Under the pieces are notes generated by a model. That model worked only from the letters and a program-made list of their open reading frames with translations, ran no database searches and had not been told where the DNA came from. This document shows, in pieces, positions 11,544-59,005 of a stretch of DNA of 64,000 bases. Numbering within the stretch: the stretch's first letter is position 1; every line of letters begins with the position of its first letter. This DNA is from Polytrichum commune (taxonomy: Eukaryota; Streptophyta; Polytrichopsida; Polytrichales; Polytrichaceae), in assembly GCA_950295325.1 (NCBI GenBank), contig OX485805.1:28323501-28387500 (forward strand), in the 5' to 3' direction. A program made the translations under genes and the position numbers.

Positions 11544-14352
11544 CTTGTTGACTATGTGCTAACCATTACTAGAGCATGTATAGTATGCTAAGACTATCTT
11601 GGCGTCCCTATGTGCACCCAACTAGCCTCAACGAGGCTGAAAATTGGTCACCAAATGAAGCAAGTGGCTAAATAAGGCACTTTTATTTAGAACATTGCTA
11701 ACATATGCCTTGCACCACAATGTGCCCCTTGTTGATAATAAGACAATTTGGCCATCCCTTCCTATCCATCTTCACTCTACATGTTGCTCTCACAACCAAC
11801 TTCTAGCAAACCCGAAATCAATTTGGATGTAAAAAAAATATCATACTTCAAAATGTGTCGTTTGATCTCCAAATCATGTGACAAATTCATCATTACCTTG
11901 TAACCAGAAAAACCACATCCTATGTGCCATAAATATTGGCATCATTCTCACAATAAGCTCATATTTTCTGGCAAATTTGGCCTCAATATTCCACGAGCAT
12001 CATTTCTTAACAAAGTATTTTGTTCTTTATTCTTCACACATAGCTTTGCATTGGAGCAATTATCGATTTAACCCATTGTAATATCATCCACAACGAGATT
12101 TTTGATCTAGAGCCCAAAATGCATGGTATAGTTCATTGTAGGCATTGATGTGCCACCAAGGCTTTGCAAGTTTGTTATAATCATGGTCAATTTTTTCTAG
12201 GATGACCTTTCTATTGTCAACCAAATGGATGCACTAGAAACTCTCTATAATTCTAGCTCTACTCATAGCACCAAAAAATTCAGATGATATATGAAAATGC
12301 ATGTATATATGGAGTACACTAGAAGGAAACTTGTCCATTACAACCGCTTGTTGTGACTTGGCCGTTTCGGCCCATGGCAAGAAAAGCATAAATAATCATT
12401 GCGGTTGTTAACCAAAGGTTTTTGGCTACGATTTTTGGACAATGAGTAATCAAAAGCATCTGGTTTCCAAACAAAATGATTTATTTATGCATTGAGTTGC
12501 AACGCAGTAAACAATTTTTCTTCTAGCGTAGTGGACTCTTCGGTTTGAAAGCCTCTCTAGTCTTGTGAATATCAAAGTTAAGAAAATCCCACAAAGGTCA
12601 CAAGTAGTCAACTATTAGCAACTCTTCCTTCTACTCACTCTCCCCCCATTCTCATTTTGTCGACATGCATACAAGTTTGACAACAAAAGAATCTTCGAAG
12701 ACGATTTGGTTCTACTTTATATCCTTTGACCAAGAATTCGGCGATGCCAACATACTTGACCAACTTTGTGTCCAATTTACCTCTTTATGGATGCGCTAAG
12801 AATTTGTAAGAATTTGTGTATGTTTTTGAGCACGTCAACTTCTATGTGCCCTTCGGGACCTTTTTGTATGGAACATTAAACTCCCTCAAAACTTGCACAA
12901 AAACAAGTAAATTTTCAGCAATTTTCCTCCCATACAAATGTATCAAAATCATCTATCACCTCCAAAAGCTTGATAAAAAAAATAGTGTGTATGGGTGTCC
13001 TATTATACCCATGAAATGCTCATATGTCAAGAGACATTTGATAGTTTGATGACTCAATAAGCTAATATTTTGCTTAAAACTCTACACCAATCTACAATAT
13101 CTGTGGTTTTTTAATGTTTTTAATTTTTTTTTAATTTTATCAATCTTATCAAGTTCTCATTGAAAAAATTAATCTTTTAAAAAAAACCCCAAAAAAGATT
13201 TATGATTTTATGGTAAACTTTCAAAAACAATTTCACTTCTAGTTCATAATAGGACCCCCAAAAGGATGATCGGTTTATTTAATTGTATGGAAATAACTTT
13301 TTTGGTGCCTCACAACTTCTTATTCTAAATGGTTCTTAAGAAACCTCTAGGAATATTATTTTATAGCACTAAATCCAACGTACATCTTAGAAATTTCTTT
13401 ACCCCTCATGTCCTTATAAGCATCTAGGACTTTAATCTTAAAAGACCAAGGGGTTCTATATATAGCCAATTTCAACGAGCCTCGCCAAAAATTTGAAATC
13501 TATGTAATAGATTCGCGAATGTCAATGTGAAGGTTGAAATATGCACATATGTAGATCTGATGATCAAATTATAAAGAAAATGGTTGTGTCCAAAGGCACC
13601 CAACAATAATTATGAGCCCTAGTCTTTAACAACATGGAAGTATTCAACCGTTTTGAAAACTACCCTTTAGAAATTAGTTAATTTTAGATGGGATCATTTA
13701 TGAAAATATCAACTAAACGAAGAAGAAAACATGTGTCTCAAATACAAGTTTCTATGCATGTTGAGCCCAAATTAATTGGACCATTCGTACGCTGAGGGAT
13801 TCAGGATTGAATATGAACTTTGATAGAGAAAGAGAGATGCCCTTCTTTGTTTGTGATTGATTCATCCCAATTTCAACTAAATAAAGTACGTCGAGGTCTT
13901 TGATGATTATTTTGGATATGAATAGTAATGGGTAGGTGTCACGAAACTTTGAGCATTGAAGTGCTCAAAGACTCTCTTATACTTAGTCGCTTGTACCTTA
14001 TTGGTTGGACCCGTTCAAGAGCCACACGGGATTGAGCCAAAAGGAACCTATATATTACTATGAGACTTCCCTAACCTTTTCAAGTGCAAAAATCTCGTGG
14101 ACAAAGAGTCCACTTGCGTGCCTTTGGTGTTCTACCCCACAAAGCCAATGATGGTGCTTAGTGGCCATTTGTTAGTTTCAATTTGGATTTAGTGGAGAGA
14201 TATTGTTTGAAGATGTTTTCTCGTGATCGACGATAGATTTTGATAAGTGGGATAATCAGGCTTTGGTGGGAGTTTAGGTGTGATTCTTGAAAGGCTTTCA
14301 GAAGAATAAAGAAGGTAAAGTATTGGATAAAGTTTGGGCCAATACTTGTTAG
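11544..14352. other. Intergenic, no gene recognised
   Basis: AT-rich, with only short frames. About 13380-13740 is similar, in the same orientation, to about 15590-15940 (shared phrases around 'gttctatatata...gatgatcaaa...aaaggcacc'), so both are pieces of one dispersed repeat of unknown class. Confidence 0.35.
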
Positions 14353-14380
14353 TTTAGGGTTTAGGGTTTAGGGTTTAGGG
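14353..14380 (+). repeat. Interstitial telomeric repeat (TTTAGGG)4
   Basis: Four perfect head-to-tail TTTAGGG units, the canonical plant telomere sequence. It is too short to be a telomere and is flanked by ordinary sequence on both sides, so it is an interstitial array. Confidence 0.9.
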
Positions 14381-14464
14381 TTGTTGACATGTCATTATGT
14401 GATACATGGTTGACGGATATATCCCTTGGAGAATATTGTGATGACAAGGCACGATATTAAGAGC

Positions 14465-18786: not shown

Positions 18787-19700
18787 ATAATGATATAATC
18801 ATGATTTCAATTACAACAAAGTAGATAAAGATGTTGAAGAAAAGTATGTACATAGACTCGGTTTTTGCACTACAGTGTAGAAGACACTTAAAAATTTGTC
18901 CATCGCCCTTTTGCAGCTAAAACAATTGCAATTCAATCATGCATGCTAGCATACAATCGTCTACATTCCTCTAGACTGATAGAGTCGCAAACTTCTTGCA
19001 CTCGAACCCATAATTGAAGAATACCATTGGGAGGACGACAATATGAGTTCAATCGCTGTTTCAATATAGCCCATATGTACTCAATAGGATTTAAATCAGG
19101 GGATTGTGCAGGCCACTCTAAAACAAAAAATGGTTTCTTCCCAAACCATTCTCGAACAATCTTGGTTGTATGCACGACAACATTGTCTTGTTGAAAAATG
19201 ATTTCTTCAAGATTGAACCCAAATGCATGCAGTGTACTACACAAATCTTGCTCTAAAATTGCAATGTAGCCTCTAGCATTCAAGTGCCCTTGTATATTAT
19301 GCAATGACCCCAATCCTCTACAAGTTAAACAACGCCAAAGCATTATAGAGCCTCCATCATGCTTCAAAGTTTGGTTCAGAGCACGCACATGGATGTTTTC
19401 TTTGTCCTCTATCCAACACCAAGTCCTCCCATCCGAATTGAAACGATATATATTAGTTTCATCACTAAACACCACCCGATCCCAATCACTCACAGTCCAA
19501 TCATTGTGCATTTGAGCAAAGCGAAATCTTTCTTTGATGTTCTTCCGACTCAAAGCATGCTTCTTAACCTTTGTAAAAGAAGACAATCCTTGTTCTTTGA
19601 ACGCATTCCTCAAGGTATTGTCGCACGTCTTTACACCCACCTCTCTTCGAAGCACTTTTGATGCCTATGTTGTAATTTCTAAACCGCCAACAATAACTAG

Positions 19701-20846: not shown

Positions 20847-23800
20847 TTAAAACTTTGCGACTGCCAGCAAATTATCTTTGTCTGATAATTCAATGGCACC
20901 TACTAGAGAGACAGTTTTTGGAGGGGGGGGCACATGAACTGCAGCACTCATGCGTTGCTCTTCTAAACTAGTTGTTATGAAAACATCAGATGTGTCTTGT
21001 TCTTCCCTCCTTGAACGTGCTTCCGCTCGCAATACTACCTTCCAACCGGGTTTTCTGAGATCATTGGAGAAAAATACTTGTGTGGCTTGACTTGGGAAAA
21101 TGAACGGGTCCGACATCTTGGGTTCTTTGTGCCGAGAATTCACCACCATAAACCCCGCATCGTCCCGTACATAAGTTGGATTTCCACGATTATCTTCTCT
21201 TTTCAACCAATCGCACCGAAAAAGAATCACCGGAGTTCGCAATGGACCATAATCCAACTTCAATATATCTTGTAGCACTCCCACATAGTTTAGGGATACC
21301 TCTGATTGAGAGTCAAATGTTGGTACTTCAAATATAGAAGCAATTCCACTGTCGTATGTTTGCAACAATGCGGACTGTGAATCTTCCACTCGAAAGTGGT
21401 ACCCGAATGCACGCATCCTCGTGTAACGTGTTGCTTTTTGGGATGGCCTACTACACAACAAAATTCTATCCATGTCGTCCCCGTTGTTGGGATCGTGTGG
21501 ATGGGTGTGCACTGCTTTCCTAACCCAAACATCAAATGGTTCCATGTTGCGATTTGCATCATGTGCATCCCTCCATTGCCTAAACACAACATGGATTCAT
21601 TAGTATGCGACTTGCGGAGCAATCACACAAGTGTAATATAAAATTGTCATATTACAGTCATTGAACCTCCATTAGTGCATGCCCACGATGATGTAGTCCT
21701 ACTATAGTCATATTTCAGTGAAAACTAACTACAGAGTGACTACGCAGCATCATACTCACCGATGCCAGGGTTCCAAGAGTGAGATGTTTGTTAAAACATA
21801 TTGATGAGCAAGTTCTCTCAAAGGAGGAGTCATGACATAACTGGACCCTGCCCCCTCCAGAACCTCCTCTGCATCTCCATATTCTTCATCTGCGTCCCAA
21901 ACTCGTCTATCTACAACCTCAAACCTCTGCAAGTATTCTGTGATGAACCCAAGGCATTCATCCTTCACGTAACCCTCTGCCATGGAGGCCTCTGGTCTCG
22001 CCGTGTTGCGCACATACTGTTTCAATGTTTTCATGTACCTCTCAACAGGGTACATCCATCTTGTAGAAACAGGTCCATACAAATCCAGCTCCTCCACAAG
22101 GTGATACACCAAGTGTGTCATAATATCAAAAAACGATGGGGGAAAATGCATCTCTAAGAGTGCCATGCTCCGAGCAACGTCAAGACGAAGACCCTCAAAC
22201 TCAATTGGATTCCACACTTTGCTGCAAATTCTCCGAAAGACCTTCGAGATCCTCATCACTGCCAATCTAGGGCCTGGTTTCAACAAACCCCTTAAGCCTA
22301 GCGGCAATATTTGCTGCATGAGTACATGGTAATCATGCGACTTCAGTCCCCCAAAGTTCTTCTTCCGTATGTATTGACCTATGTTGGATATGTGGCCTGA
22401 AGGTGTTTTCAAAGACTCAATGGTGCGGGCAAATATGTCAAACTCCTCGCTGGTCAGTACATAAGGGGCTGCTGGTTTTAACATTTTTCCAGAGTTTTTT
22501 GGGTTCATGGTTAGCCAAAGGTGTTTCCTAATTCCCCTACGTTGTAGATCACGTCTAACTTTCACAGTGTCCTTATGCCCCGTTATGGTCTTCAATATGT
22601 TCTTTGAGAGATTTTGTTCGCAATGCATAACATCCAGTGTGTATCGAATAAGAAGGTCCTGTTTCATAACAACGAATCAAACATTAAAGTACCATATTAA
22701 TGCAATTGCAAGAAGCAACATACTCTCTTCATGTGCAGTTCCAGATTAGTCATTTTGTTGCCTACGTGTACAATATGATAGTCATTGCATAGTCATCTGG
22801 GGTTTTAGCTGGACTTAAATATAGTCATTCCACAGTCAGGAACACTCATTGTGAGATTACATCATTGCAGAGTACAACGTAAGCAACAGATGTTTGATGT
22901 GGACTCTGAACCTGCAACATTCTATGACAAAATGGATTCGAGTGGTTCTCTGTTCTCAAATTGCTAGCCTGCTGGGTTAGGGTGCAGAAAATTCAAATGG
23001 ACTGTGAATAAAAAAATACCTTCCAGTATGGCAAATCATACATAATGCTTCTCCGTTTCACTCCATGTATTTTTGATGGATCTCCATCACTGCCATCTCT
23101 GTTCCCATTTGCAAGCCACTCTTGGTATTGCAGACCCCTTAGTTCTTGCTCTTCTGCAGTGACGACTCTAGGAGGACCTCGTTCTTCCGTGCGGCCGTTA
23201 AAGTGATCTTTCATTCTACATGATTTCCATGGGTCACCCTGTGGAAGCCATCTTCGTGTGTCCGTATACGTCTGTTTCCCAAGCTCAATGGAATGTTCAC
23301 CCCTAAAATCAGGCCCACAAACTGGGCATGCAACGTAGCCTTGGTGCGCAACACCTGCCACTGTTCCATACCCTGGAAAGTCGTGGATTGTCCACAATAG
23401 GATTGCTCTCAAATTGAACGTCCGAAACCCGACCTCTTTCGAGATGTCATAGGCTAACACCCCTCTCCATAACTGTTGCAATTCTTCAACTAATGGGGCC
23501 AAATACACGTCAAAAAATTGTGCAGTAACAGATTGTTTCCCTGGAATAAGCAAGACTAGCATGATAAAGAATTTCTTGGTTGTCAACCAAGGTGGTATGT
23601 TGTAGTTAAGCAACATCAGTGGCCATGTCGACCAAGTAGAGCGTTGAAGCTTGAAAGGATTAACACCATCAGCAGCAAGTCCCATGTGTACATTTCGGGC
23701 GTCATGGCCAAAAGTGGGATCTACATTATCGTGCACATGGTGCCAAGCCTTGGAGTCACATGGATGTCTAACCATGCCATCTGAGCTCCTATTTTTTGAA

Positions 23801-24804
23801 TGCCATGTCATGAGTTCGGATATTGCGGGTGTTCGAAACATGCGTTTTAGTCTAGGAATCAATGGGAAATGTCTAAGGACTTTCCACGGTCTTTTATGTT
23901 GTGCCACGTCTTTATACCGTGGAGCATTGCACTTAGGACAATTTACAGCATTTTCAAGTGGCCCTCTAAACAACACACATCCTCCTACACAAGCGTGAAT
24001 TGTGTTATAATTTAGCCCCAACCGCCGAATCAGTGATTTTGCCGCATGATAATTCTTGGGTAGTCTATTCTCACCGGGAAGAAGGTGTAGGCGGAAAAGA
24101 GCGAATACTTGATCGGCAAACTTGTTGCTAACTCCGTGGATTGTGCATAGGGTCATGATCAAGATCGTTGCTGCTAATACAGAAGACTTTGCGCCATCGT
24201 ACAGTTCATGAATTGCCTCCTCTAAATCATGTGGGGCATCGTCTTTGTCATCCGCATTGCCTACGTCTGCCATGGGTTCTTCATCCTCTTCATCACCCGA
24301 GTCACATCCACCATCTTGGAGACCATCAACCACATTAAATGCGTCCATAACGATGTCCTGCAATGTTTCTTCCAATGGGTCATCTTGCTGGTCTATTTCT
24401 TGGAATACATCCTCCACCATTGAGCGCACTTCGAGGCCTACATCCATCCTCCCATCTTCATGTGTTCTAGGCGCAGTCTTGAACTCACTTTCCCATTCCT
24501 CATCGGATGAATCCCTGTCACCTGGGCCTCTCCATAGTCTAAAAGCAGGTTCTCTGCCATAAAGGATGAGGTGCTCCTTCACCTTTTCCAATGAGCACTG
24601 GACACGGCCCTTGCACTTGGAGCATGGACACCGTATGCGTTTCAAATTGTAGAATACTGCCCTCTGCTGCTCCCTCTTCCATAGCCTATCATCTCTCAAT
24701 TGTTGCCGTCTCTTGTCGCCAACGGGTAATCTCCTTTGCTCCATTCTAAGTTGTTGAGCACGTCCATAATTTTCATTACCAGCCAACACATGCATGGTTA
24801 GCAT
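20847..24804 (-). CDS. CACTA TNP2-type transposase, 3 exons, intact
   Basis: Exons are 24804-23020, 22658-21760 and 21579-20847, all with GT-AG borders and matching phase. They encode 1138 residues without a stop. The order is: a Cys-rich Transpos_assoc-like N-terminus ('CPCSKCKGR', residue ~59), an acidic stretch (~95-200), the Transposase_21 (TNP2) domain ('LLPGENRLPKNYHAAKSL' ~241, 'ADGVNPF' ~378, 'DFPGYG' ~478, 'ACPVCG' ~495), a DUF4218 region in exon 2 and a DUF4216 region in exon 3 ('DYGPLRTPVILFRCDWLK'). In CACTA elements this protein catalyses excision and integration. It is transcribed away from the TNPA-type gene, with about 1.3 kb between the two start codons. The lack of stops suggests recent activity. 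The start is the first ATG; the exon junctions are inferred from conservation and splice consensus. Confidence 0.88.
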
Positions 24805-26133
24805 GGTGTATGTAAGGGCACTGAATTGACCGAAAATATGCTAATGTAAATTGGTACCTACCTCAGTGCACGTGGACGGTGACGGTACAAGCAAGGCATT
24901 TTGTAGATATATACAAATTCAAGCTCTTTTCGTCTCTCTCTCTTTAATTCAACTAGACAGTTTCATAAATTCAGCAAAATTGAAAATAAGTGACACCAAG
25001 AGACTTACAAATGACAATAAAAATGATGGGGCTTTTTAGTGTCTCACTGTGATATAGTATTATATAATCATGCGCATTTTTGAACTCAAGATGGCTTGGA
25101 GTACATGGCTAATCTGTACATCCAAATTCACACCATGATTTATATGAATATGCAAGTTATGAAGTTGACGGAGTCTTGTCTCTTAGGCCTACACCTATGA
25201 TCGGGGAGAACCGGCAGTTAGTTACGGATGGACCAGTTACGTTTGAGAAACAACCGGTTGAAATTCAAGATTGCGGGAAAATTAGCGATCATTTTAGAGG
25301 AATTTACTAAAACTTCCCCAAGTACTTATAAGAAGGAAGCTGGTGGCCACGCGCACACTGCAGTATGCTTTTGCTGTGCTCTACCTCTGCACAGCGTAGC
25401 TGTCTCATTTCTGCTTGGACATCTTCTACCCCGGCTTCAATGTTCTATGCTTCGCTATTCTTGTTTGAATGTTTTCTTGGGCGCAGTTTGGCCATTTGGA
25501 AAGGGGTGTCCTGTGACATTTTGATTAAGTTGTGCAGTACTAATGTAGTTGCAAATTTGTCATTCCTGCCTTGATATGTAGTTGGAGTTTAGTCATTTTG
25601 TATTTCTTGCGGAACAGAATTATAGTGATTCCCTAGTCAGTTTGTAGTCGTTCTATAGTCGTGTTACAGACATTCTATAATCATGCTATAGTCATTCCAT
25701 AGTCATTATATACTCGTTCTATAGTCATTTTGTACTCCTAAACGTATATGCTAGGGTTTTTTAGTGCCGTTGAAACTTACCCTATATGCAGAATGCTACA
25801 ACGTAGTTTAGGTACGCCTCACATTGATGCGACATAAACAACGACTCTGAGAGCCAGAGCATTCAGCTATGAATTGCGCAAGTTTCGGCGTGTATTGGGT
25901 TTAGGGAGCCGCAATGGTAGGTTGAGAAACTACTGTATGGTGTTGGGGAGGAGAGAGTGGAGGAATTGGGTGAGGGCCGAGGGGAGTAGACGAGGGAGGT
26001 GCGAGGTAATTAGGTTGATTTGTGCCGCGGTAAAAACGCAGAGAGTGAAAACTGTTTGAATAGATAGAAAGGGTGAAAGGCTGAGAGGGTAGCAGTTTAG
26101 GGGTGAGGGTAGTGTGAGTTAGTGTTTGCATAC
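24805..26133. promoter_or_regulatory. Divergent intergenic region of the CACTA element
   Basis: Head-to-head spacer between the TNP2-type start (24804) and the TNPA-type start (26134), so it should contain both promoters. A cluster of 'tatagtcatt'-type motifs at about 25590-25740 is the reverse complement of the TGACTA motifs found subterminally. No single promoter element can be fixed. A plus-strand open frame at 25874-26059 is probably leader sequence. Confidence 0.45.
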
Positions 26134-29190: not shown

Positions 29191-30289
29191 TTCATCAATT
29201 GTGTGTCATTTGCTAAGTGTATAAACATATATATTAGCTTCAACCATTATATACACCATTATACACCCATAACTAATCCTTTGATGTGGTGTGTGTTAGG
29301 TTGCAGCACAACAAGTTCACCACTCCACAGCACCATCAACACAGAATCAATGGCCCCCCAATTGGCACCAACCACCGTGGATGCAACAGCCACATGGGTC
29401 CACTCATCACTGCTACCAACCATACCCTACCCATCCGGGGCCATGTTGCCAACCATACCCCAACCACTGGATTCCCCCGCCAGCACCTGCGGAAGAACAC
29501 CATCAAAATCAGTCTAAGGTAAAGGCAGAGAGTGAAGCAAGAGCGACACGGAGAGCCAGTAGGAAGGAGGCAGAAACAAATGTGGATTTGAGGCGTTCTG
29601 GAGGCCAAAAACCGTATACACTGAGAGTGAAAGTCGGTGGCGGCATAGATGGCGGTTGTGAAGGAAAAAATGCCTTTGATGAGGCGCTCCGCAGTCTAGT
29701 TCCTCGAATTTTGGATGTAAGCGTACTAAAGTGGAAGTTCCAGCATCCTAGCTCTGTGGAGAAGCTGAGGTCTGCCATAGACAATGAGTTTGAGTATGTG
29801 GGACATAGGCTTTCAGATATGGGCTTCAAAGATGCAGTCAAAAGACAGATGAAAACAGAGAGGGCCAAAATGAAAGGATGGTATATGTCTGGCAAAAAAG
29901 AATGCCCAGTTTTCATTGAACCAGATCAATGGGCACAGCTATGTAAATATTGGTCGGCGCCCGAGACAGAACAAAAGGCGCAGATGATGGCGAAAGCAAG
30001 GCAGCAAGTGAAGAACACCTCGAATGTGGGGAGGACTGGAAGGGCTGGAAAAGAGGCACAATTGGTAAGTAACCTAACAACTCCATAGCTTGCAATTCTC
30101 TTTGTACATTTATTAAATCCCATTTGAGCTGACGGTGCTAAGGTGCATTGCTATGACAGCGGAGGAAGAGGCAAAGGAGCCCAGGGATTACTGAAATCGC
30201 GGAAGATCTCCAAGAGTCTGAGCAGACTGGAGCTTGTACATCTGTAAGTATTGAGACACACATGCCTAAGTATTTTGGGTGTCTTGGGG

Positions 30290-30855: not shown

Positions 30856-32035
30856 CATAGTCATAATGTTGGGTTAATGTAGTCAGTTCACAGCCATATT
30901 GCTGTAATCTTGTAGTAATTTCACAGTCATATATGTTGGGTTAATGTGGTAAGTTTTAGTCATATTGCTGTAATTTTGTAGTAATGTCACATTCATATAA
31001 GTTGAGTTTACCTTACGTCACATGCTAGGTTAATGCTGCAAGAGCAGTCAACTCAAATGTATTAACATACTAATGCATCCACCTGAATCCATGGTTGTCA
31101 GTATGTAGGCTGAGATGTAGCAGCATTCTGCCCTATGGTTGTGTTTATGCTGGATCTTAGCTGCATTCATGTGCAATTCTTCAACATCCAGCATATTTAT
31201 TTTGAACCCCTCTAAATCATGTATGGTGGGTATGTGCACAGCAAGGGGTTTCCGGGAGGCTGTCAACACGGATGAGCATGGTTGAGAGCACGCAAAACAA
31301 GTTCAAGCAGCAGTTATCCGACCTCGTGCACACGTCTCAACAAAACACCGTCGTCCTCAATAACCTTTCATCAATGTTCGCCATCATGATGGAGAAAATA
31401 GGAAACCCAGTGACTGGATGCGACCCGAAGTCACCTACACCCCAAAACACTAACTCCCATATGCCTAGTTCAGAACCGATTTTGAATTCATGGGATGGTA
31501 GTCCAGGTGACACCACCCTAAACCCAATGTCCAAGGTGATTGAATCTGAGGCTCCCACTAATGTGCCTAAGTTGAATAGGGAGGGTGTGATGGGTGGTGG
31601 TAGGAGTGCGGAGGTTGCTAGCGAGGTAGGCGCTAGCAAGGTAGTGGGATTAGAGGCACTTGAGACTCTTGCAGGTGCAATCATGGAAGGTGAAGCTGCA
31701 GCGGTTGGGGAGCCCACTCCCATCCAAGCTAATGGGAAGGAAGGCCTTGATGTTTGTGCAAAGATTGCAGGGAGTGATACGCTCATAGAGGGACGTGGTG
31801 ATGGTGAGACTATGATTGCATTGGCCGTGGAGGGTGGGAGTGGAGGGTCAGCCAATGGAGAAGGTAGGTGCGTAGTAAGTGAGAATGTGGAAATGGCTCC
31901 GCCATTGTCACCTCGGAAAAAAGTTACTCCCACTAAACCAAGGCGGAAAATAAGCCAAATTCCCCTAACAGAGTAGGTGGTAGTGGCAGTCAATCGGCTC
32001 ATCCAACAGATCAGGTGAGCAGTGACATTGAGAGA

Positions 32036-32749
32036 ATGGGTACCAACTTTCCAGTTAAGTTATTGATTTTTAATGTCCATGGCACGCTTTTAGATTGCAG
32101 TCTTTTGACGGAGCCAAATCCTAACACGTCAATCCGTGTGACTACGCGGTCCTTGACACGACGGATGGTGTTTAGGCCATGGCTTGTTGAATTCATAGAC
32201 AAATGCTTTAGAAATTTTAGAGTTGCTTTTTGGGGAATCAAGAGCACATCAAACATGGAAGATGTTGTGGCTTCGATGTTGCGGAAGTTTAATGGCTTGG
32301 GTAGCCACAAACCTGTGTTCATATGGTCAGCAAAGGAATGTGAGGAAGTTAGTGAGAATGTTGGGGCGTCAAGGTGGAAGAAACCATTGTCCAAAGTGTG
32401 GGAGATGTGGCCAGAATGGAATGAGGGCAATACAGTGATCATCGACCACCACCGAGCTATGGTGGAGTGCAATCCAGTTGCGAACATCATTATCCCGCCT
32501 CCATTCTATGTGGAAGACATCACAAAGCTTGCAGATGATAACAATTACCTGAGATTTGGTTTGTGGCCTCTTTTGAAAGGCCTAGTTGATAGTCTTGATG
32601 TTCACAAACATGGCAGTGTGTTGCCTAATTCGAAGCAGGCAATTGGGGATCATTCGCAAAATGTACAAGCGGGTGGGAGGACAACGAGGAGCTCAAAGCT
32701 GAAACTTGCAGACACATCCTTGTCGGGGCATCCTCCGTTGTCAGGTTAG
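32036..32749 (+). CDS. NIF/FCP1-like HAD phosphatase domain frame inside CACTA
   Basis: An open frame from ATG 32036 to TAG 32747-32749 (237 residues). It begins with a HAD/NLI-interacting-factor-like core ('VKLLIFNVHGTLLDC', 'FRPWLVEFIDKCFRNFRVAFW', 'KPLSKVWEMWPEWNEGNT', 'IIPPPFY') and continues through a Leu-rich C-terminal helix region. Active members of this plant family use DxDx in motif I and a D-D pair near the 'LLIDDS' motif; here these are NVHG and IDHH, so the catalytic aspartates are lost. The frame is +2 relative to the upstream coil of exon 6. It can join exon 7 in frame if the acceptor at 'acaag' (ending 32856) is used instead of the one ten bases upstream. A captured host gene fragment is the likeliest origin; phosphatase activity is unlikely. 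Confidence 0.65.
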   Translation: MGTNFPVKLLIFNVHGTLLDCSLLTEPNPNTSIRVTTRSLTRRMVFRPWLVEFIDKCFRNFRVAFWGIKSTSNMEDVVASMLRKFNGLGSHKPVFIWSAKECEEVSENVGASRWKKPLSKVWEMWPEWNEGNTVIIDHHRAMVECNPVANIIIPPPFYVEDITKLADDNNYLRFGLWPLLKGLVDSLDVHKHGSVLPNSKQAIGDHSQNVQAGGRTTRSSKLKLADTSLSGHPPLSG

Positions 32750-44380: not shown

Positions 44381-47300
44381 CTACAGGGCTCGTGGATCTA
44401 CCTTCTCTAAGCTCACTCCATGCGGATCTTCCTGGACAGATAAACTTAAGACTCCCCTCCTAGTCCACTCCAACTCCACGGTCTCTCTCACAGTGGCCCC
44501 CAGCACTATTGCAAATACTGCATCAAATCCTCCTGCACCAGGAACTCCAGCTAGAAGGACTCCATCCATGTTCATTGTTGCATCTAACAGTGCAGTCTGG
44601 GTTGGAGGCTCAATCTAGAATCACAAAAACAACCACAAGCAACTCATTAAGGTAAGTAAGCTTAAAACAGACACTACTAGCTCTGAACCCACTTCTCCTA
44701 AGATATTGAACATGCAATTAATACAAGATGATTAGCCAACCCAAATCGAGGCCATGGCTATATTCCTCATAATTTTTGCAGCTCACATAAGTATAATGTT
44801 CAATGTCAATGTGAAGATACTTTTTCTGATTAAAATGAACCCCCCTTGAATCACCTCATCTTTGCAGTCATGCGAAGCAAGAGTGGAAACTTACACAACT
44901 TTCACAGCTGCATTCCATGGAGGGAAAATAAACTGATGACAGCATTCAGTTTTACTACTGAGAAACACATAAAAGTGAGAGAGCCACTGAAACAATGTGC
45001 ATCAATGCAATCCAGGAGTTTATGAACCAGAACTTACAGGTACTCTTGCTGCTTCTCCCACATGCCTGAGCAGTGACCGAACCTGAACAAAGGCCTCCCT
45101 TGTTTCGAGGAGAGCCTTCACAACCTCCAATTTCTCTGCATTTTCATCAGACAAACCCTTCCACTGCCACAGTAACACAACACATGCACAAATTAATAAC
45201 CAGACTTTAAAATGCACTTTACCAAATATTTGACTCACCTAGTAGTGTAATAAAATGTATGGCAAGCAACCCCACATCAACTATTCATGGTTTTTCTGAA
45301 GAATCCTCCCAAACACTAATATATGATCAAGTAGGACACAATTAATCAGCTGCAAAACAATCGGTTCTACTAAGTATAGCAATCAGAGGCTATTTATGCA
45401 GCACTGAAGAAATCATGATAGTGCAAAATACAACCATGTGCAAAATACACGTCATGATGCTGCAAAAACCAAGTGCAACATATTTGTGGCCATTCAACGA
45501 TGATGTCTACCTTGTCAAAAGAGCATGCACTGCATGCTTGCAGAACGCTGTCGTAGGCATCTCGTGCCGAAGCAGCTTCTTTAAGGTGCAGAAGACCCTT
45601 CTCTACACCATAGTTTGCCTCTGCTAGTGCATCCCAAACAGGCTTGGCTTTCTCAGGGTCCTGCTTTCGCCAAGCCTGTACTGCCCCTACCATTGAAGGA
45701 GTATGTGAACCTCCAAAACCTGGTTCTCCGACAACCTGAATGTGGAGAGGAAACATTCATTTCAGACTCAATACATGGGACATCAGACCACAAAATGAAA
45801 AAAACAGTACAATCCTAAAGGACAAGAGAGTAAAAGTGACTTGGAAGCAAATTACACAGCTCATAGAAGCAAACGGATATCCAGGCAAGGGTGTGTACCC
45901 TATGTGCTGGTCAGATTGGACATAGATAATTTTTCTTTGTCAAATTTGTTGACACATGTCATCATGTGATTAGATGGGGCCTTTAAAAGATGACGTGGAA
46001 TTGACTTTAGGCAAAGACATACCCAATCAGACCTGTACGTACAGTATGCAAGAGAACACTTACCAACACAAGCCCAGGAGGGAGTGCATAGGCCAGTCTT
46101 TCACCATCCCAACTTTCTGCCACGACTTGCTTCATCACTTCCAGAGGTGAGACAAGTTTGCCACTCGCCTGCAAGTTCACCAGTATGAACAAATTTGATA
46201 AACACACCACCCCACCAGTTTGGCAAATCAAGCACTCCAATGAAAATAAGACATAACCTTAAGTTAGAAAGTACCTGAGCAGATGAGAGCACAGAAGGGG
46301 AGAATCTGACATATCGCTGGCTACCAAAAACAGCACAGCTCACATCAAACCCACTGCCAATCTTTCCCTGTGCTGCACAGTGTGCTGCTTGGGCTACACA
46401 ATGTACAAGCTCCATATCTGAATCCACGTCCTCTTTTTCAGCTCCATGCAATGGGAGGTCAACTGACCCAAGATACTGGAGAAGACCTGCAACTACTGCA
46501 GTAGTCATAGCTGCTGATGAACCCAATCCAGTTTTTGCAACTTCAGGTAAGGCTATTTCATGTTCCCCTGGCTGAATGTTACTAGAGATGGGTGAGAAAG
46601 AAGGTAGGGAGGCTAGACTTGATGGCGTAACTGTCAATCCACATGCTTCAAGCTGCATACAAACAGAGAAACAGTGAACTATTTTGGTCAATATGAGTGC
46701 TACACAGAAAACAATAATATACGATTCCACATCCTAAGATATTTATCCATGGGACAAAATATGCAACAAAATCTCATGCAAGTTATCACACCTCCATATA
46801 ATCAGAGGACAATAGAGTTATCCTCTAACTCTACATGTTGTTTTGCATACAGCACCTTCCATGTTTGGTAAGTTTTTGGTGGGTGCTTGGAGGTAATGTC
46901 GATGTTTGAACGAAGAACATTCTATATTGTTCATTGAGAGTCAGACTCAATTTGGCATGCTAATAGGTGCTAAAATATGCTTGGCCCTCAATAAAATGAT
47001 ATAGGTTGCTCTTCATTCAATTTCAAGCACTACCTCCAAGCATGCACCACAAGTGGCAAGAAAATATTGATATTGTATGCAAAACAACCAATAAAAAATC
47101 ATAGGCAACCAACTACTACAAAAAAGTCCCATTGAGTTGAAGAACTTAAATAATCCAAGGCAGGAGTTTCCAGATGACAATGTGTGCAAAGGGTAGTCCA
47201 TCCTCCTTAAATGAACCAGAGTGTGACATACAGGATGAAGAGAGCATCAAGAAGCAACACATCATACCTGCTTTCGAAAGGAATAGAAGTCATTGCTGCC

Positions 47301-49156
47301 CAGGATTGTAATTTCCAGACCTACAGATATAACCGGTTTTAAGATATGAAACTCCAGACGGGATATCAGTATGCAGGTGCTAATGGATCTAAAGAATACA
47401 CCATTGTGGATATGAATCATCATGCCAAATCTGGGCACAAAAAAGTTGTCACAAGTACCTCGGATCAACTGTTGTTGGTATAAATCTCGTGCGTCACTGG
47501 AGGCATCTACAAGTCCAGCTTTGACAGCTGCTACAGCAAGCTGCACCGCTTGTTCCACAAAGGCACTGCCACCATCACTGCACAGTGGCCCCAAACAAGT
47601 ATATTTCATCTTTCTTTGTGAATTCCTTATAAAGGACCCTGTCATCAATCAGAGCGAATTGTTTACAACATACAATACAGCAATTACAAAAAAAAATTAA
47701 GAAAAGGGATTTGACAAGTGGATGTTCTGCCACTTGCAAAGCCTTGTACTCATTTTTTTGCATGAAATTCCTAGTCATGAAAATTTGGAACCCAGCCAGT
47801 ATTAGGCAGAGGCAAAGAAGTGGCATGGAATAAAACAAGGTCTCAACATGACAACAGCTGGAACAGAAGTGACATCCAAACCTTGAAACCCTCCGCAGGC
47901 TCAGATCACGGTGTGAAAGTTTGTACTCGGTCTCTTTTCCAAGCTGGGGTGATATTACCTTCACATCTGTCCATGCCTACACAGATGCAAGCCGTTCTAT
48001 GTTACTTATATGAAATACGAAATGCACTTCGAAAGTCGTAGGGTGTTGGTTCACCTTTGATACCTCTTCAACAAGAAATGTATAAATTTACCATATTTGA
48101 AATAATTATTGACAATGCAGCAGATGCCAAGACTCTTATGCCAAGGAAGTTCCAGCCAAAGGTATTGGCTGCATAATTCCAGGATGCAATCTTGCTCAAA
48201 ATCTACAAAAAAAATATCCAACCATTTCAAGAGATTCATAATCAGTGCGCAATTGGCCACTAGGTATGAAACTACCCGAACGACAGAAGATCACCACTGA
48301 AAGAGAAAAGGTGGAACTGAGCAACCGTCCTCTCTCATACATTTGGCTCACAAAAAAAAAATTGTTGGAACTGGACATTCTGATGGCAATCCTAGCTCCA
48401 AAAAGCAATGAGCCATCCTTGGAATATAGTGGCACAGATAACCTCTCTCATACAATTGGCTCACGATTTTTTTTGGAACAGGGCATTCTCCAATTGCAAA
48501 CCTAGCGCCAAAAATCCCCGAGCCATCCTTGAAAAAACGAGGAATAAACAGCCTATCTGATGCAATTGGCTCACGAATGCATACATTTTTGGAACATGAC
48601 ATTCTCCAATTGCAAACCTTGCTCCAAAAATCCCCGAGCCATCCTTGTAAAAACGAGGCACAGATAACTTCTCTGATGCAATTGGCTTGAGCCTTTCCTT
48701 TTTCTTTTTCTTTTTCTTATTTGGAACATCTGATTGCACACCTAGCTCCAACAATACCCCGGCCATTCACAGATAACACCTCTGATACAATTGGCTCACG
48801 CATGCGTATGTTTTTTGGAATAGAGCATCATCCTCCGATTGCAACCCTAGCTCCCAGCAGCCACCCTTGAACAGATGAGGCACAGATTAAAGTAAAGAAA
48901 AGCGTACCCAGGACCAGCTGTCAGGCGCCAGATCGACATGGATGGGCTTGACGACGGCGTAGAAGCGAGCCGATGTCGATAGCACCAAGCCTGCATTGGG
49001 CTGCTCCAGTATGAGGTAGGCCCCTGTGATCAACACCTTCCCCGGAGCCGAAACCACCCTGCACATCACAATAGTTCAGAAACAACAACTTGATGCGACG
49101 ACATTGTTAGGATAGGACTTTATCGAATTGCATACTTACACGGCCTCGTCGTCCAT
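44381..49156 (-). CDS. PMK: Phosphomevalonate kinase (EC 2.7.4.2), 10 exons
   Basis: Phosphorylates mevalonate-5-phosphate to the diphosphate with ATP, in the cytosolic/peroxisomal mevalonate route to isoprenoids. Exons: 49156-49140, 49058-48908, 47976-47882, 47577-47459, 47320-47268, 46652-46275, 46168-46064, 45735-45511, 45163-45038 and 44614-44381. All borders are GT-AG with consistent phase, giving 500 residues, close to the plant family length. GHMP-kinase motifs are intact: 'SAPGKVLITGAY' (~9-20), 'AKTGLGSSAAMT' (~184-195, ATP loop) and 'LLAGVPGAGGFDA' (~443-455). The start is the first ATG after an in-frame upstream stop, and only 17 coding bases precede intron 1. Intron 2 (931 bp) carries a minisatellite and intron 5 a MITE. 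The enzyme is well conserved throughout, so I regard it as functional. Confidence 0.96.
46805..47135. repeat. MITE in PMK intron 5
   Basis: Inverted repeats of about 50 bp: left 'ttgttttgcatac' with 'gtgcttggaggta' further in, right the reverse complement ('tacctccaagcatgcacc' and 'gtatgcaaaacaa'). The copy at 57171-57525 in intron 5 of the transporter gene is similar along its whole length and in the same top-strand orientation. It is non-coding. Confidence 0.8.
48329..48889. repeat. Minisatellite in PMK intron 2, 5 x ~111 bp
   Basis: Units start at 48329, 48442, 48552, 48668 and 48779. Each contains 'cctctctgatacaattggct', a variable T-rich/GGAACA segment, 'ccaattgcaaacctagctcc' and 'ccgagccatccttg'. 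Unit lengths are 110-116 bp. The array ends about 20 bases before the splice donor of exon 2 (48907). Confidence 0.9.
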
Positions 49157-54050: not shown

Positions 54051-57000
54051 ATGAGGGTGGCCAGCAGCAGCGCGGCTTCGGAGGGCGTGAAGGAGAGGCG
54101 ATGGGAGGAGCGGGAGCCGTTGCTGCAGCAAGATGAGGAGGCGCTGGACGTGGAGGGAGCCGGTGGCGGTGGTGGTGGGAAGAAGAAGCCCCCACCACCA
54201 CCACTACCACCAATTAATCCGTTGCGAGTGCGCGCTTTCTTCGTCGCTGCGGTCCTCACTGTCTTCACGAGCTCCCTGGTACCATCCATCACCTCCCGTG
54301 CCTCTATTTGGCCTTTCCAGATTGCAATCAATCATGCAGGGGTTTGGGTTGAGGAAGACATGCCAATGCCAGTTCCACTCCTCCCGTGTGAAGGGATAGG
54401 CTTGTGGTGCATTTGTGTAGGTCCAATTGGTGTGAGGTTAGGGAGGAAATCGCAGGGATTGGGGGTTCAGCTGGTGCGGATTGAAGCCCGGCAACTGCAT
54501 ATACACTGGGTTTTTCTATGCCGATACCTGTGGTGTTGGGAACCGTAACCCTATCGTTTGTCCTCATTGTCTTCACGAGCTCCCTGGTACCATCCCCTGC
54601 CTCTTTCAGCCTTTAGGAACATGATCAACTCCTATGCAGGGGTTTGGGTCCGGGAAGACATGCCAACTTCACTCCTCCTGTGAAGAGATAGGCTTGTAGT
54701 GCATTTGTGTAGGTCCAATTGGTGTGAGGTTGTAGTGAGGAAAACGCAGGGGTTGGGATTCAGCTAGTGCGGATTGAAGCCCGGCAACTGCATATACACT
54801 GGGTTTTTCTATACCAATGCATGTGGTGTTGGGAACCATAACCCTATCTATTGTCCTCATTGTCTTCACGAGCTCCCTGGTACCATCCCCTGCCTCCTCC
54901 ACCTTTCAAAAATGTGATCAACTACTACACAGGGGGTTGGGTCGACGAGGACCTGCCAATTTCAATTTCACTACTCCCGTTCGAGGGATAGACATAGATT
55001 GCAATTGTGGAGGCCCACTTGACTGAGGTTTAGGATTGAAGCTTGGTCAACTGCTTGAAAACTGGGTTTGTCTATGCCAATGCTTTTGGGGTTGGGAACC
55101 AACTCGCATTGTTTAACCCTATCTTGTGTCCTCATTGTCTTCACGAGCTCCCTGGTACCATCCTCTGCCTCTTTCACCCTTTGGAATGCGGTCAACTATT
55201 CCGCAGGGATTTGGATCGAGGAAGGCATGTCAATTGCACTCCCGTTCGAAGGGATATGCTTGTGGTGCATTTGTGGTGGAAGTCCAATTGGTGTGAGGTT
55301 TAGTGAGAAAAGACAGGGTTTGGGGTTCAGCTGGTGCGGATTGAAGCCTTGCTATGCGAATGCTTTTGGGGTTGGGAACCAACCTGCATAACCCAACCCT
55401 TTTCTTGATCTTCTGACCTTTACCCTGGATTCCCACTCTTGTACGGAATTGTTATCCCTTGTTAGATAGGTGTGCCAAAAAGTGACGTCCATGCTAGTGC
55501 AACGAATGTGAGCATGTCAGCCAACGTTTACCTCTTTTTTAGGGGCTAACTCTGTAATCTGCAAGTCGAGAAATTTTGTGGGTTACAAGCTCACACGACA
55601 TTGTGCGCAGTATTTCATGTTAAGGTTCAAAATCAATCTCTCTACTTGTGCACAATGCTCAAGTGATTCTGTATAGGTGACTGAACCTCCTGAAATTGTG
55701 ACAGGGTATACTGACAACGCTATCACAAACCGGTGGAGGGTACAAGTATGACTACGCGACAGTTCCGTTCTTATCCGAGTTTTTGAAGGTGAATATATTG
55801 TTCACAAATGAATCGACTGGTGTCTTTGGGTAGATGTGAAATTGCAACCTCTGGCATTGGGTGAATTCTGCAAGGAAGGTTTGAATATAAACCAGAAGTC
55901 CCAGTAAAAGTCCCAGTAGTTGTTTAAAGAGACATGCAGAAAACTAGCAATTGGGTTTCTTGGCAGCAACTATTTGCAAATATTAAATTGATTGGAATGA
56001 TCTGCATGTAATATACGTAGTGATTCACAATCTAAAATTGCACACAGTGCAAGTGACAAGTTGACTTCCATTCTTCTATATTTCTGAGATTGATTGGATA
56101 TTATTGATGTTGTGTGCAGTTCATGATGTGTGCATATCTTCTGTGGAGGGAGTATAAGTCACCAAAGCCACCCTCTATTACAACAAACTGGAAAAGTATA
56201 TGCTTGTATCCCATTCCGTCTTTGATTTATCTTGTGCACAACAATGTGCAATTCGCAACTTTGACATATGTGGATACTTCCACATATCAAATAATGGGTA
56301 ACCTGAAGATCGTCACGACTGGTATTCTGTTCAGGTGAGCTCATCATATTGGTAAGCTCAATTTTTCCAATTGTCTTTGTCCAGATCAGACTGTGACTTA
56401 ATCTTGTGTTGAATGACCTCAAAGCCTATTTTAAAATCATTACTCTGGGGATCTCATTTTTTACTTGTGTTGCACATAGCACTACGTTCAAAAGTCAATC
56501 TTGTTTTAAATTTGAAACCTGCACCTGTGTAAGTCAAGGCAAACAGGGTGCCTGTAATTGAACACCCAACGCTTGTGTGTTTACAGGGCATTCTTGAAAA
56601 AGAAATTATCAATGCTTCAATGGATGGCAATAGTGCTTCTGGCTGTTGGTACAACAGTTAGTCAGGTGAGACTTCCTTTCTCTACACATAGGTGTATTCT
56701 ATTCAACTGAGAATGGTGGTACCTATACTTTTCTATTTTCTTACACTTGTAGTACGTTATAAGTGTAGGCACTTTGCTTGCCTAAACAAACTTTACTTTC
56801 ATGTTACATCATCTTTATTACAGGTCCAACCATCCACAGTGTCACATCCAGCACCATCACTCAAGGAAATAATTAGTTTGTGACGAAATTGATAAGCTAT
56901 AAGATTCTTTTACCTGATTATGTGAATTTCCTCTGCAGGTCAAAGGTTGTGGGGAAACTGATTGTGGAAGCCTGCTGTCCGCACCATTAGAGGGGTACCT

Positions 57001-59005
57001 CCTAGGTATACTGTCCGCATGCCTCTCAGCTTTGGCTGGAGTTTACACTGAATATCTCATGAAGAAGAACCAGGACTCACTCTACTGGCAAAACATGCAA
57101 CTATATGCGTAATTCCTTCCTAAACCAGAACTATGAGAATGCTGATTTATATGTCCAAATTGCATTTGTGAAGGACAATAGAGTTATCCTCTAACTCAAC
57201 ATGACTTTTGGTTGTTTTGCATTCAACACCTTCCATGTTTAGTAAGTTTACAGTGCATCCTTGGAGGTATTTTGGAGGTTTGAACAAAGAGCATTCTAAA
57301 TCAACTCATTGAGGGTCAAACTCACTTTGGCATGCCCAAGAATTTGTTAAATGAGTTTGATTCTCATTGAACTGAATTAGGTTGCTCATCATTCAAAATC
57401 AAACATTACCTCCAAGCATGCACCACAAGTGGAAAGAAAGTACTAATATTGTATGCAAAACAATCAATGAAATATCAGAAGGGACCAAAATCCGATGAAA
57501 AGTCCCAATGAATGGAAGGTAACTATATTAGTCATGATCTTTTGGGAATTTCTTTGGTCTTTTTAGTTAGTCAGCCATTTCACAAAATATGATGGCCGAA
57601 GCTTTGGGGAAGTTCTCTCTCTCAAACTTACAGTATGAACTTGATCCTTTTTACAGATTTGGAGTGCTTTTCAACATGGCACGCTTGACTGTAGACGATG
57701 TAAGGGTGAGCTTTGCAAAAGGCCCATGGTGGTTACGGCTGTTCAGTGGTTATGATCTCGTGACCTGGCTGGTGGTTTTAAACCTTGGCTGCACTGGTCT
57801 CCTTGTGTCGTGGGTGATGAAGTATGCCGACAACATAGTCAAGGTACAGTTCCACTCTTTTCTGAATGTCATGCTCAGGGCCACTTTATACACCAGAGCT
57901 TGAGGGCCCATGACCATTCAAATTTAAGATCTCTCATTGGTGGAAAATGCCAAGATCTGTCTCACTTCATTTTACACTAGAGCTTAAGGTTCTGAAGAGA
58001 CCAAGGAAGTTTGAATGGATGAAAAATCTACATGGCGTGCAAATAATGTTTCAATGTCTACCAGATTTTGCGTCCAGCCCAGCTTGAAGAGGTGGGCCTA
58101 ACATAAAACTGGGAGACCATGACAGTTCAAAATCTCAAAACCCTTGAGAAGGATGAGTATTGATGGTATTGAAATAGCATTCAGTTGAGAGCTCAGTTGC
58201 ATATGTCTTTACACAATACTTGAAGGCCCGTTACCACACAAAATTCAATATCAATTTTCCATGGTACAGCCTTTGGATGAGTTTCAAGGCCCCTCACAAT
58301 ATCAGTCACAGATGTTGGCCATGGTGTAAAGTGGTGCTCAGTGTCTCGGTTATCTGACTCTGATTCTGTCAAGTTGAAGAGTGTGAGTTCATTGATATTA
58401 TATTTGATGGAGGCACAATAGATGTATGAGTTGTATGCTAATTTTATATATTTGATAGGCGAAATCACTCAACGATCAATGTCATATCCATGATTTTACA
58501 TTAAACTTATGCTGGAAAGTTGACTTTAAATTGGCCTGCCGATTGTAATAATTGTTATTTTTTGAGGCAGACTTATTTTAAGGAAGGCTAAGTGACTGTT
58601 GTTCTTTGCCAGGTCTATGCCACATCCATGGCTATGCTACTGACCATGGTAATTTCCATCCAGTTGTTTGAATTCAGACCAACTTTGCAGGTATGCAACA
58701 CCTGCTAATTCCTCATTCCAGTCCTTCCAATACAATTTGAAAATGTGTACAACAAATTTTTTGATGATGTGATCTTGAAATTCAGTAAATTTATTTGCCT
58801 TCTAACAAACTGGGCTCAATTGTTGTGTTTATGATGGATTATATGGCAGTTATTTCTGGGGATCTTGATTTGCTGCATGTCTCTTCAATTGTATTACACC
58901 CCTGTGGAGTCACTTGTGGATCAAGGTTCACCTCCTTCAACAAAATCCGCAGAGTCTCTTGTCTCCGAATCCAATGGCAAGAGGAAAGGCTCATCATCTC
59001 AATAG
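54051..59005 (+). CDS. Golgi nucleotide-sugar transporter, CMP-sialate transporter-like
   Basis: Exons: 54051-54278, 55705-55788, 56120-56334, 56587-56665, 56939-57108, 57657-57843, 58613-58690 and 58850-59005, all GT-AG and phase-consistent, encoding 398 residues. The protein follows plant members of the SLC35A/Nuc_sug_transp family closely: 'GILTTLSQTGGGYKYDYATV', 'HNNVQFATLTYVDTSTYQIM' and 'NLKIVTTGILFR' (substrate-pocket region), 'YTEYLMKKNQDSLYWQN', and 'GLLVSWVMKYADNIVKVYAT'. Such proteins have about ten membrane helices and exchange a nucleotide sugar for a nucleoside monophosphate across the Golgi membrane; the substrate cannot be told from sequence. The N-terminus has about 60 extra residues (charged, then poly-Gly and poly-Pro) before the first helix 'RAFFVAAVLTVFTSSL'. 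Three tandem copies of the end of exon 1 lie in intron 1, and intron 5 holds a MITE. Confidence 0.95.
54518..54586 (+). other. Candidate alternative first coding exon (copy 2)
   Basis: ATG 54518 opens 23 codons ending in '...VFTSSL' at the same CTG|GTACC donor and phase as exon 1. Splicing to 55705 would give a transporter lacking the long N-terminal extension but keeping a complete first helix. Expression is unproven. Confidence 0.35.
54817..54879 (+). other. Candidate alternative first coding exon (copy 3)
   Basis: ATG 54817 opens 21 codons in phase 0 to the repeated donor, encoding a hydrophobic segment ending 'VLIVFTSSL'. It has the same logic as the copy at 54518 and would yield an N-terminus of about the length seen in other plant family members. 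Confidence 0.35.
55074..55154 (+). other. Candidate alternative first coding exon (copy 4)
   Basis: ATG 55074 opens 27 codons in phase 0 to the repeated donor, ending 'CVLIVFTSSL'. It is the copy nearest the shared acceptor at 55705. Confidence 0.33.
57171..57525. repeat. MITE in transporter intron 5
   Basis: Second copy of the element at 46805-47135, sharing 'ggacaatagagttatcctct', 'caccttccatgttt', 'acctccaagcatgcaccaca' and 'ttgtatgcaaaaca'. The inner inverted repeats span 57210-57465. Confidence 0.8.

Follow-up and report, generated by a model that had tools for sequence, protein, structure and literature searches.

Tandem copies of an exon tail and its 5' splice site in the first intron of a nucleotide-sugar transporter gene of Polytrichum commune: conservation suggests that the splice site, rather than proposed new protein starts, has been kept

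The Gr39a gene of Drosophila has tandem first exons ahead of its shared exons, and each of them combines its own ATG with a same-phase donor (PMC2204066). In potato, a tandem duplication spanning the boundary between an exon and an intron gave an RdRp gene a new intron (PMC4974935) and, in the oyster, the alternative oxidase gene carries a duplicated alternative exon 10 (PMC5589949).

The locus presented here lies in a 64,000-nt stretch of Polytrichum commune DNA, referred to below as the window, and recalls each of these systems in part. As in Gr39a, it displays several tandem 5' units with their own in-frame ATG and same-phase donor. In Gr39a, however, large exons are duplicated and the gene shows purifying selection, whereas only 26–27 nt of exon are duplicated here, the rest of each "exon" being intron, and the exons are candidate ones. 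The Gr39a type would call for purifying selection over the whole exon, start included; at the present locus only a 37-nt tail is invariant. Since the start-bearing part is not conserved, the locus is not classed with the Gr39a type, although it may nonetheless work like first exons of that type. With the potato RdRp case, the locus shares a tandem duplication that crosses an exon-intron boundary, splice signals included, in a plant; there, however, a new intron was detected, whereas the copies here are placed inside an existing intron, for which four donors compete in principle. As for the oyster alternative oxidase, tandem copies of a gene part likewise offer alternative splice partners, but that case concerns a last exon with both forms expressed, in contrast to a partial first exon known from sequence alone. 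Among the results listed by a literature search of incomplete journal coverage, no publication dealt with this locus or with arrays of first exons in a transporter from a moss.

The gene concerned (54051-59005, forward strand) encodes a nucleotide-sugar transporter of 398 aa in eight exons, every intron of the gene model being GT-AG, and acceptor 55705 is consistent with this complete model. Its product matches the Pfam family Nuc_sug_transp (PF04142) over residues 64-362 with 193.9 bits, vs. a curated cut-off of 27, and its residues 63-372 align with residues 4-313 of the CMP-sialic acid transporter 1 (6i1r, which we take to be maize CST) with 479.5 bits. The alignment begins only at residue 63, which agrees with the N-terminal extension of about 60 residues recognised in the original prediction. 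This tail, encoded by exon 1 ahead of the first helix, includes the string EREPLL and a Gly/Pro/Lys-rich stretch. Maize CST has a short N-terminus, so the fold needs no extension, whereas the main product here has those ~60 additional residues. The coordinates of the gene and of the array found in its intron 1 are collected in Table 1.

Table 1. Features of the transporter gene and of the intron 1 array, numbered from the first nucleotide of the window; the slash marks the exon-intron boundary
Feature	Position	Strand	Remarks
Exon 1	54051..54278	+	coding, 76 aa; ends in first helix ...FFVAAVLTVFTSSL; donor CTG/GTACCATC
Copy 1, block	54253..54287	+	exon 1 tail and 9 intron bases
Intron 1	54279..55704	+	contains the array of ~293-nt units
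Copy 2, ATG-open stretch	54518..54586	+	23 codons, MPIPVVLGTVTLSFVLIVFTSSL, to donor 54586
Copy 2, block	54559..54595	+	donor 54586
Copy 3, ATG-open stretch	54817..54879	+	21 codons, MHVVLGTITLSIVLIVFTSSL, to donor 54879
Copy 3, block	54852..54888	+	donor 54879
Copy 4, ATG-open stretch	55074..55154	+	27 codons, MPMLLGLGTNSHCLTLSCVLIVFTSSL, second ATG 55080, to donor 55154
Copy 4, block	55127..55163	+	donor 55154
Last-unit tail	55354..55394	+	ATG-bearing intron stretch; no exon tail or donor behind
Exon 2	55705..55788	+	first shared exon (GILTTLSQ...); gene model
Exons 3-8	56120-56334, 56587-56665, 56939-57108, 57657-57843, 58613-58690, 58850-59005	+	Nuc_sug_transp; stop in the last

A paralogue, the single one found (contig C7, 36748500-36754500, exon 1 around 1118-1338), likewise has an extended N-terminus. 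Acidic dileucine-like strings, a pattern with a sorting role, are present in both tails at a similar position by eye (EREPLL here, DQEALL in the paralogue); apart from this string, the two tails differ much. Intron 5 of the gene contains a MITE-like inverted repeat (57208-57467), whose 75-nt arms are 73% complementary, with 89% for the outer 19-nt arms.

The array is made of four tandem units in register, of ~293 nt each and with spacings of 308, 293 and 275 nt, and the tandem duplication announced in the original prediction is thereby confirmed, as is the shared donor, which is identical and in phase 0 in all four units. Each unit comprises the last 26–27 nt of exon 1 (GTCCTCA...CTG), the donor and about 250–280 nt of intron 1; the duplicated segment starts at exon 1 position 54253 and continues past the exon-intron boundary. 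Exon 1 supplies only the last nine or so codons of each "spare exon", the ATG and the earlier codons being copied intron. In the tail of the last unit, two ATGs (55354 and 55360) are found at the same place as in the copies, with neither exon tail nor donor behind them, so that both the ATG and the frame are of intron origin. All the intronic copies have in common the ATT base described below and an 11-column length difference vis-à-vis unit 1, and copy 4 shows a 12-nt in-frame length difference. The GC content of the units is 47–52%, vs. 36–39% in the four later introns measured. The exon-1 frame stays open for 89 codons into intron 1 (54279-54545) and that of copy 4 for 78 codons beyond its donor (55155-55388).

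A 62-residue piece of the PsaD protein from the same genome has 8htu, a moss photosystem I, as its best match after a chain containing three PsaD-like repeats, with 52 of 57 residues identical, which makes a moss the likeliest source. In the assembly (408 Mb, 64 contigs), a 1,521-nt query had no match other than at this locus, with a tool that skips very common words, and a 35-nt pattern searched with up to three mismatches had exactly four hits, all at the array, very common words being skipped here too. A dispersed repeat was rejected, since both the query and the pattern match this locus only. Intron 1 of the paralogue (about 0.57 kb) is devoid of such an array, and the best later match of the paralogue's own exon tail reaches 18 of 37 positions in the stretch scanned. 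An intronic RNA gene, such as a snoRNA, was also considered as the origin of the repeat and rejected, no Rfam family reaching its gathering score in the window. Between 53500 and 56200, 13 weak Rfam matches were obtained, all below the gathering score and nine of them on the coding stretch 54154-54221; the weak match of the array itself is to the mir-305 family (18.4 bits vs. 66). A tRNA search returned none.

Concerning the open frames, an in-frame ATG followed by an open frame up to the donor is indeed present in each intronic copy, as originally reported, and in the exon-1 phase copies 2, 3 and 4 are open over 34, 34 and 32 codons before the donor. The accompanying claim, that chance can hardly account for such open frames, fails: the neighbouring frame of the same three copies, which has no ATG and is unusable, is open over 48, 37 and 38 codons, and drift keeps ATG-open frames in a sizeable share of simulations. 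In the latter, all three copies were ATG-open in 8.5–30% of 20,000 trials across nine settings, which started from each copy in turn with a branch divergence of 0.08, 0.11 or 0.14, some indels and the 26-nt exon tail fixed. The copies descend from one unit, so their open frames are not independent, and these frames are not beyond chance. The start-codon context is poor in every copy, base -3 being T or C and base +4 C, whereas exon 1 has G at -3. The position of the ATG also shifts among copies. Between copies 2 and 3, the first 14 codons differ by seven single-base changes, five of which alter an amino acid and one of which removes an ATG, vs. no difference at all in the last nine codons. Over the three copies, the 40 columns preceding the invariant block have a tree length of 0.30, vs. 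0.37 for the whole left side. The start-bearing part of the copies is thus drifting at nearly the background pace, and only the 37-nt tail is invariant.

This 37-nt block is a non-chance signal that the first reading of the sequence had missed and is stronger than the open frames. It begins at the exon-derived edge, ends at intron base +9 (TGTCC...CATCC) and shows no difference across copies 2, 3 and 4, the next-longest three-way invariant run outside it being 10 nt (three such runs). The exon 1 block differs from those of all the copies at a single base, ACT (Thr) vs. ATT (Ile). In contrast, the DNA flanking the block differs by 9–27% between copies, and the pairwise divergences of the copies outside the block are 13.7, 23.9 and 26.1%. 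At the JC tree length of 0.38, the block should show 14.1 changes, vs. 0 seen (P = 8e-7), a test that rests on three related copies in one genome. As the array is patchy, the test was redone with flanks only, under seven flank choices, giving 9.1 to 17.1 expected changes and P values from 1.1e-4 to 3.7e-8. When the columns of the three rows were permuted, the block being included in the null, such a run came up in 7 of 20,000 cases; with four rows, in which 34 of the 35 positions are invariant, the observed level was attained in 20, 2 and 18 of 200,000 permutations, one figure for each of three alignment settings. Nor can the invariance of the block be put down to base composition, with which an entirely invariant 35-mer would have a chance of 1.4e-8 (34/35 were seen). 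The invariance of the exon tail and donor is therefore more than chance.

In the nine codons of the block, 7.3 nonsynonymous and 2.9 synonymous changes are expected and 0 of either kind was seen (P = 0.054 for the synonymous ones), while intron bases +1 to +9, for which 3.4 changes are expected, show none (P = 0.033). Since these intron bases are also unchanged, protein constraint alone would not account for the block, and conservation of the exon tail with its donor is explained by a function in splicing no less well than by a new protein start. The splice site is not cleanly delimited by the block: in the alignment, base +10 on the right is variable and is followed by bases +11 to +17, alike in the three copies, and on the left a 10-nt run without variation, TAACCCTATC, comes after three variable bases. 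No conserved promoter stands out in the array, where three-way invariant runs outside the block do not exceed 10 nt.

As a whole, the pattern suggests retention of the splice site rather than of the proposed new protein starts, and the interpretation that we tentatively and narrowly favour over coding first exons is that the intronic copies are retained 5' splice-site modules. A segment made up of the last 26–27 nt of exon 1 and the adjoining intron sequence would have been duplicated in tandem and would then have grown to four units, whose intronic copies would no longer be held as whole units, the module of exon tail and 5' splice site still being held, probably through recognition by the splicing machinery. 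We infer that the copies may provide intron 1 with competing or alternative 5' splice sites. A pre-mRNA transcribed from the main promoter would yield the full 398-aa transporter when spliced at donor 54278, whereas splicing at a copy donor would retain intron sequence; as the exon-1 frame read through into intron 1 meets a TAA at 54546, such a message should be unproductive. An RNA begun inside the array and spliced from a copy donor would instead encode a transporter devoid of the N-terminal tail. The possibility that coding exon 1 simply extends to the later donors, with added lengths of 308, 601 and 876 nt (2, 1 and 0 modulo 3), is ruled out by the stop at 54546 in the exon-1 frame. That the donor matches the consensus poorly counts against splice modules. 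Its pairing with U1 is estimated at -4.1 kcal/mol, vs. -6.8 to -11.2 for five of the gene's six other donors and -1.7 for the remaining one; with a donor that is weak vis-à-vis U1, the exonic flanks may matter, which speaks for the module.

The array being patchy, short-tract exchange, or uneven alignment quality, is a live alternative to selection on a splice module. The partial exon-intron duplication may have been left as a neutral relic, in which the most similar stretch of the copies stays alike through gene conversion over short tracts or through unequal exchange, an explanation that we consider possible though doubtful. Local exchange or uneven alignment does occur in the array: an identical run of 46 nt, with no splice block in it, is common to intron parts I1 and I2 (reached in 13 of 5,000 permutations), whose divergence is 36% in the first third and 8% in the rest, and the longest identical run was reached in fewer than 5% of the permutations for four of the six intron-part pairs (of 5,000: 118 for I3-I4, 166 for I1-I4 and 238 for I2-I3, besides I1-I2, vs. 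692 for I2-I4 and 4,617 for I1-I3). The ATT base and the 11-column difference, shared by the copies, make them one family that could be homogenised among its own members; the invariance also spills slightly past both edges of the block, and the array is confined to one locus and absent from intron 1 of the paralogue. The block, however, is alike in all three copies, while the other long runs are only pairwise. Conversion tracts usually take their flanks along, yet the 37 ungapped columns to the right of the block differ by 22–27%. Moreover, exon 1 still differs from all the copies at one base, a site that exchange between exon and copies has not levelled.

That the copies are alternative coding first exons, as originally proposed, appears unlikely to us. 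RNAs would in that case start within the array, be translated from the ATG of a copy and be spliced from its donor to exon 2, giving a complete first helix without the ~60-residue tail carrying EREPLL. A copy joined to 55705 would indeed yield a transporter with a short N-terminus, the form known from maize CST, and a hydrophobic first helix, as had been foreseen, the best 19-residue hydropathy of the junction peptides being 2.07–2.28, like that of exon 1 (2.01). All three copies have an in-frame ATG with an open frame, each retaining at least one of two neighbouring ATGs, and the nonsynonymous sites of the last nine codons are unchanged. Against this stand the outcome of the drift simulation and the longer opening of another frame, the near-background variation ahead of the block, the changes between copies 2 and 3 with the loss of an ATG, the poor start contexts, and the unit behind the last copy, which retains both ATGs with no donor following. 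Hydrophobicity, too, comes partly for free: when 844 stop-free 14-codon intron windows were joined to VLIVF, 20% reached 1.6, vs. 2.27, 2.39 and 1.54 for copies 2, 3 and 4 and 1.66 for exon 1 on the same measure, so that the hydrophobic look stands out in two copies but not in the third. Of the spare first exons of the original prediction, the duplication, donor, phase and frames hold; the chance argument falls and the start part is drifting, the exon tail with its donor being the conserved part. Far less probable is a block that serves, in the copies, as an acceptor-donor pair made of a TAAC, a pyrimidine-rich stretch, an AG, 7 nt (CTCCCTG) and the donor; likewise very improbable is a reduced output through the frameshift that one or two included 7-nt micro-exons would cause. 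In all three copies, 32 nt do separate a TAAC from the end of the AG, the stretch being 76% pyrimidine with no earlier AG, the left-edge run TAACCCTATC is among the 10-nt three-way invariant ones, and exon 1 itself has no TAAC. The acceptor would, however, be GAG, a disfavoured form; 10-nt invariant runs are not unusual in this array, where three are present, and a 7-nt exon with a weak donor would be hard to define.

Elsewhere in the window, a second tandem array (48329-48690), with about three copies of units of about 110–116 nt, is located upstream of a GHMP-kinase-like stretch (46104-46733, reverse strand), presumably a phosphomevalonate kinase. Also present are a Tc1/mariner-type transposase (18936-19664, reverse strand) with HTH_Tnp_Tc3_2 and DDE_3, open in one frame over 243 aa, a CACTA-type element (21759-24840, reverse strand) with Transposase_21, Transpos_assoc and DUF4218 stretches, and a Transposase_24 match below the cut-off (29300-30085, forward strand). 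An interstitial repeat of the plant telomere type (GTTTAGG, 4.4 times) is found at 14352-14382, and a long open frame contains an NLI-interacting-factor-like phosphatase domain (NIF; 31937-32746, forward strand; 43.2 bits vs. a cut-off of 21.8).

Returning to the retained splice-site modules, the locus could, in a rather speculative extension that we hold to be improbable, form a bank of four competing 5' ends derived from one exon tail, one of them giving the form with the sorting tail and three giving tail-less or unproductive forms, with selection guarding the splice module while the start part drifts. If the copied donors are used, the locus would be a readable example of a partial exon duplication taking on, ahead of any maturation of coding sequence, the role of alternative 5' exon or splice regulator, and would show which piece selection grips first. 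If they are not, it would be a clean case of misleading open frames together with a 37-nt island kept alike by exchange.
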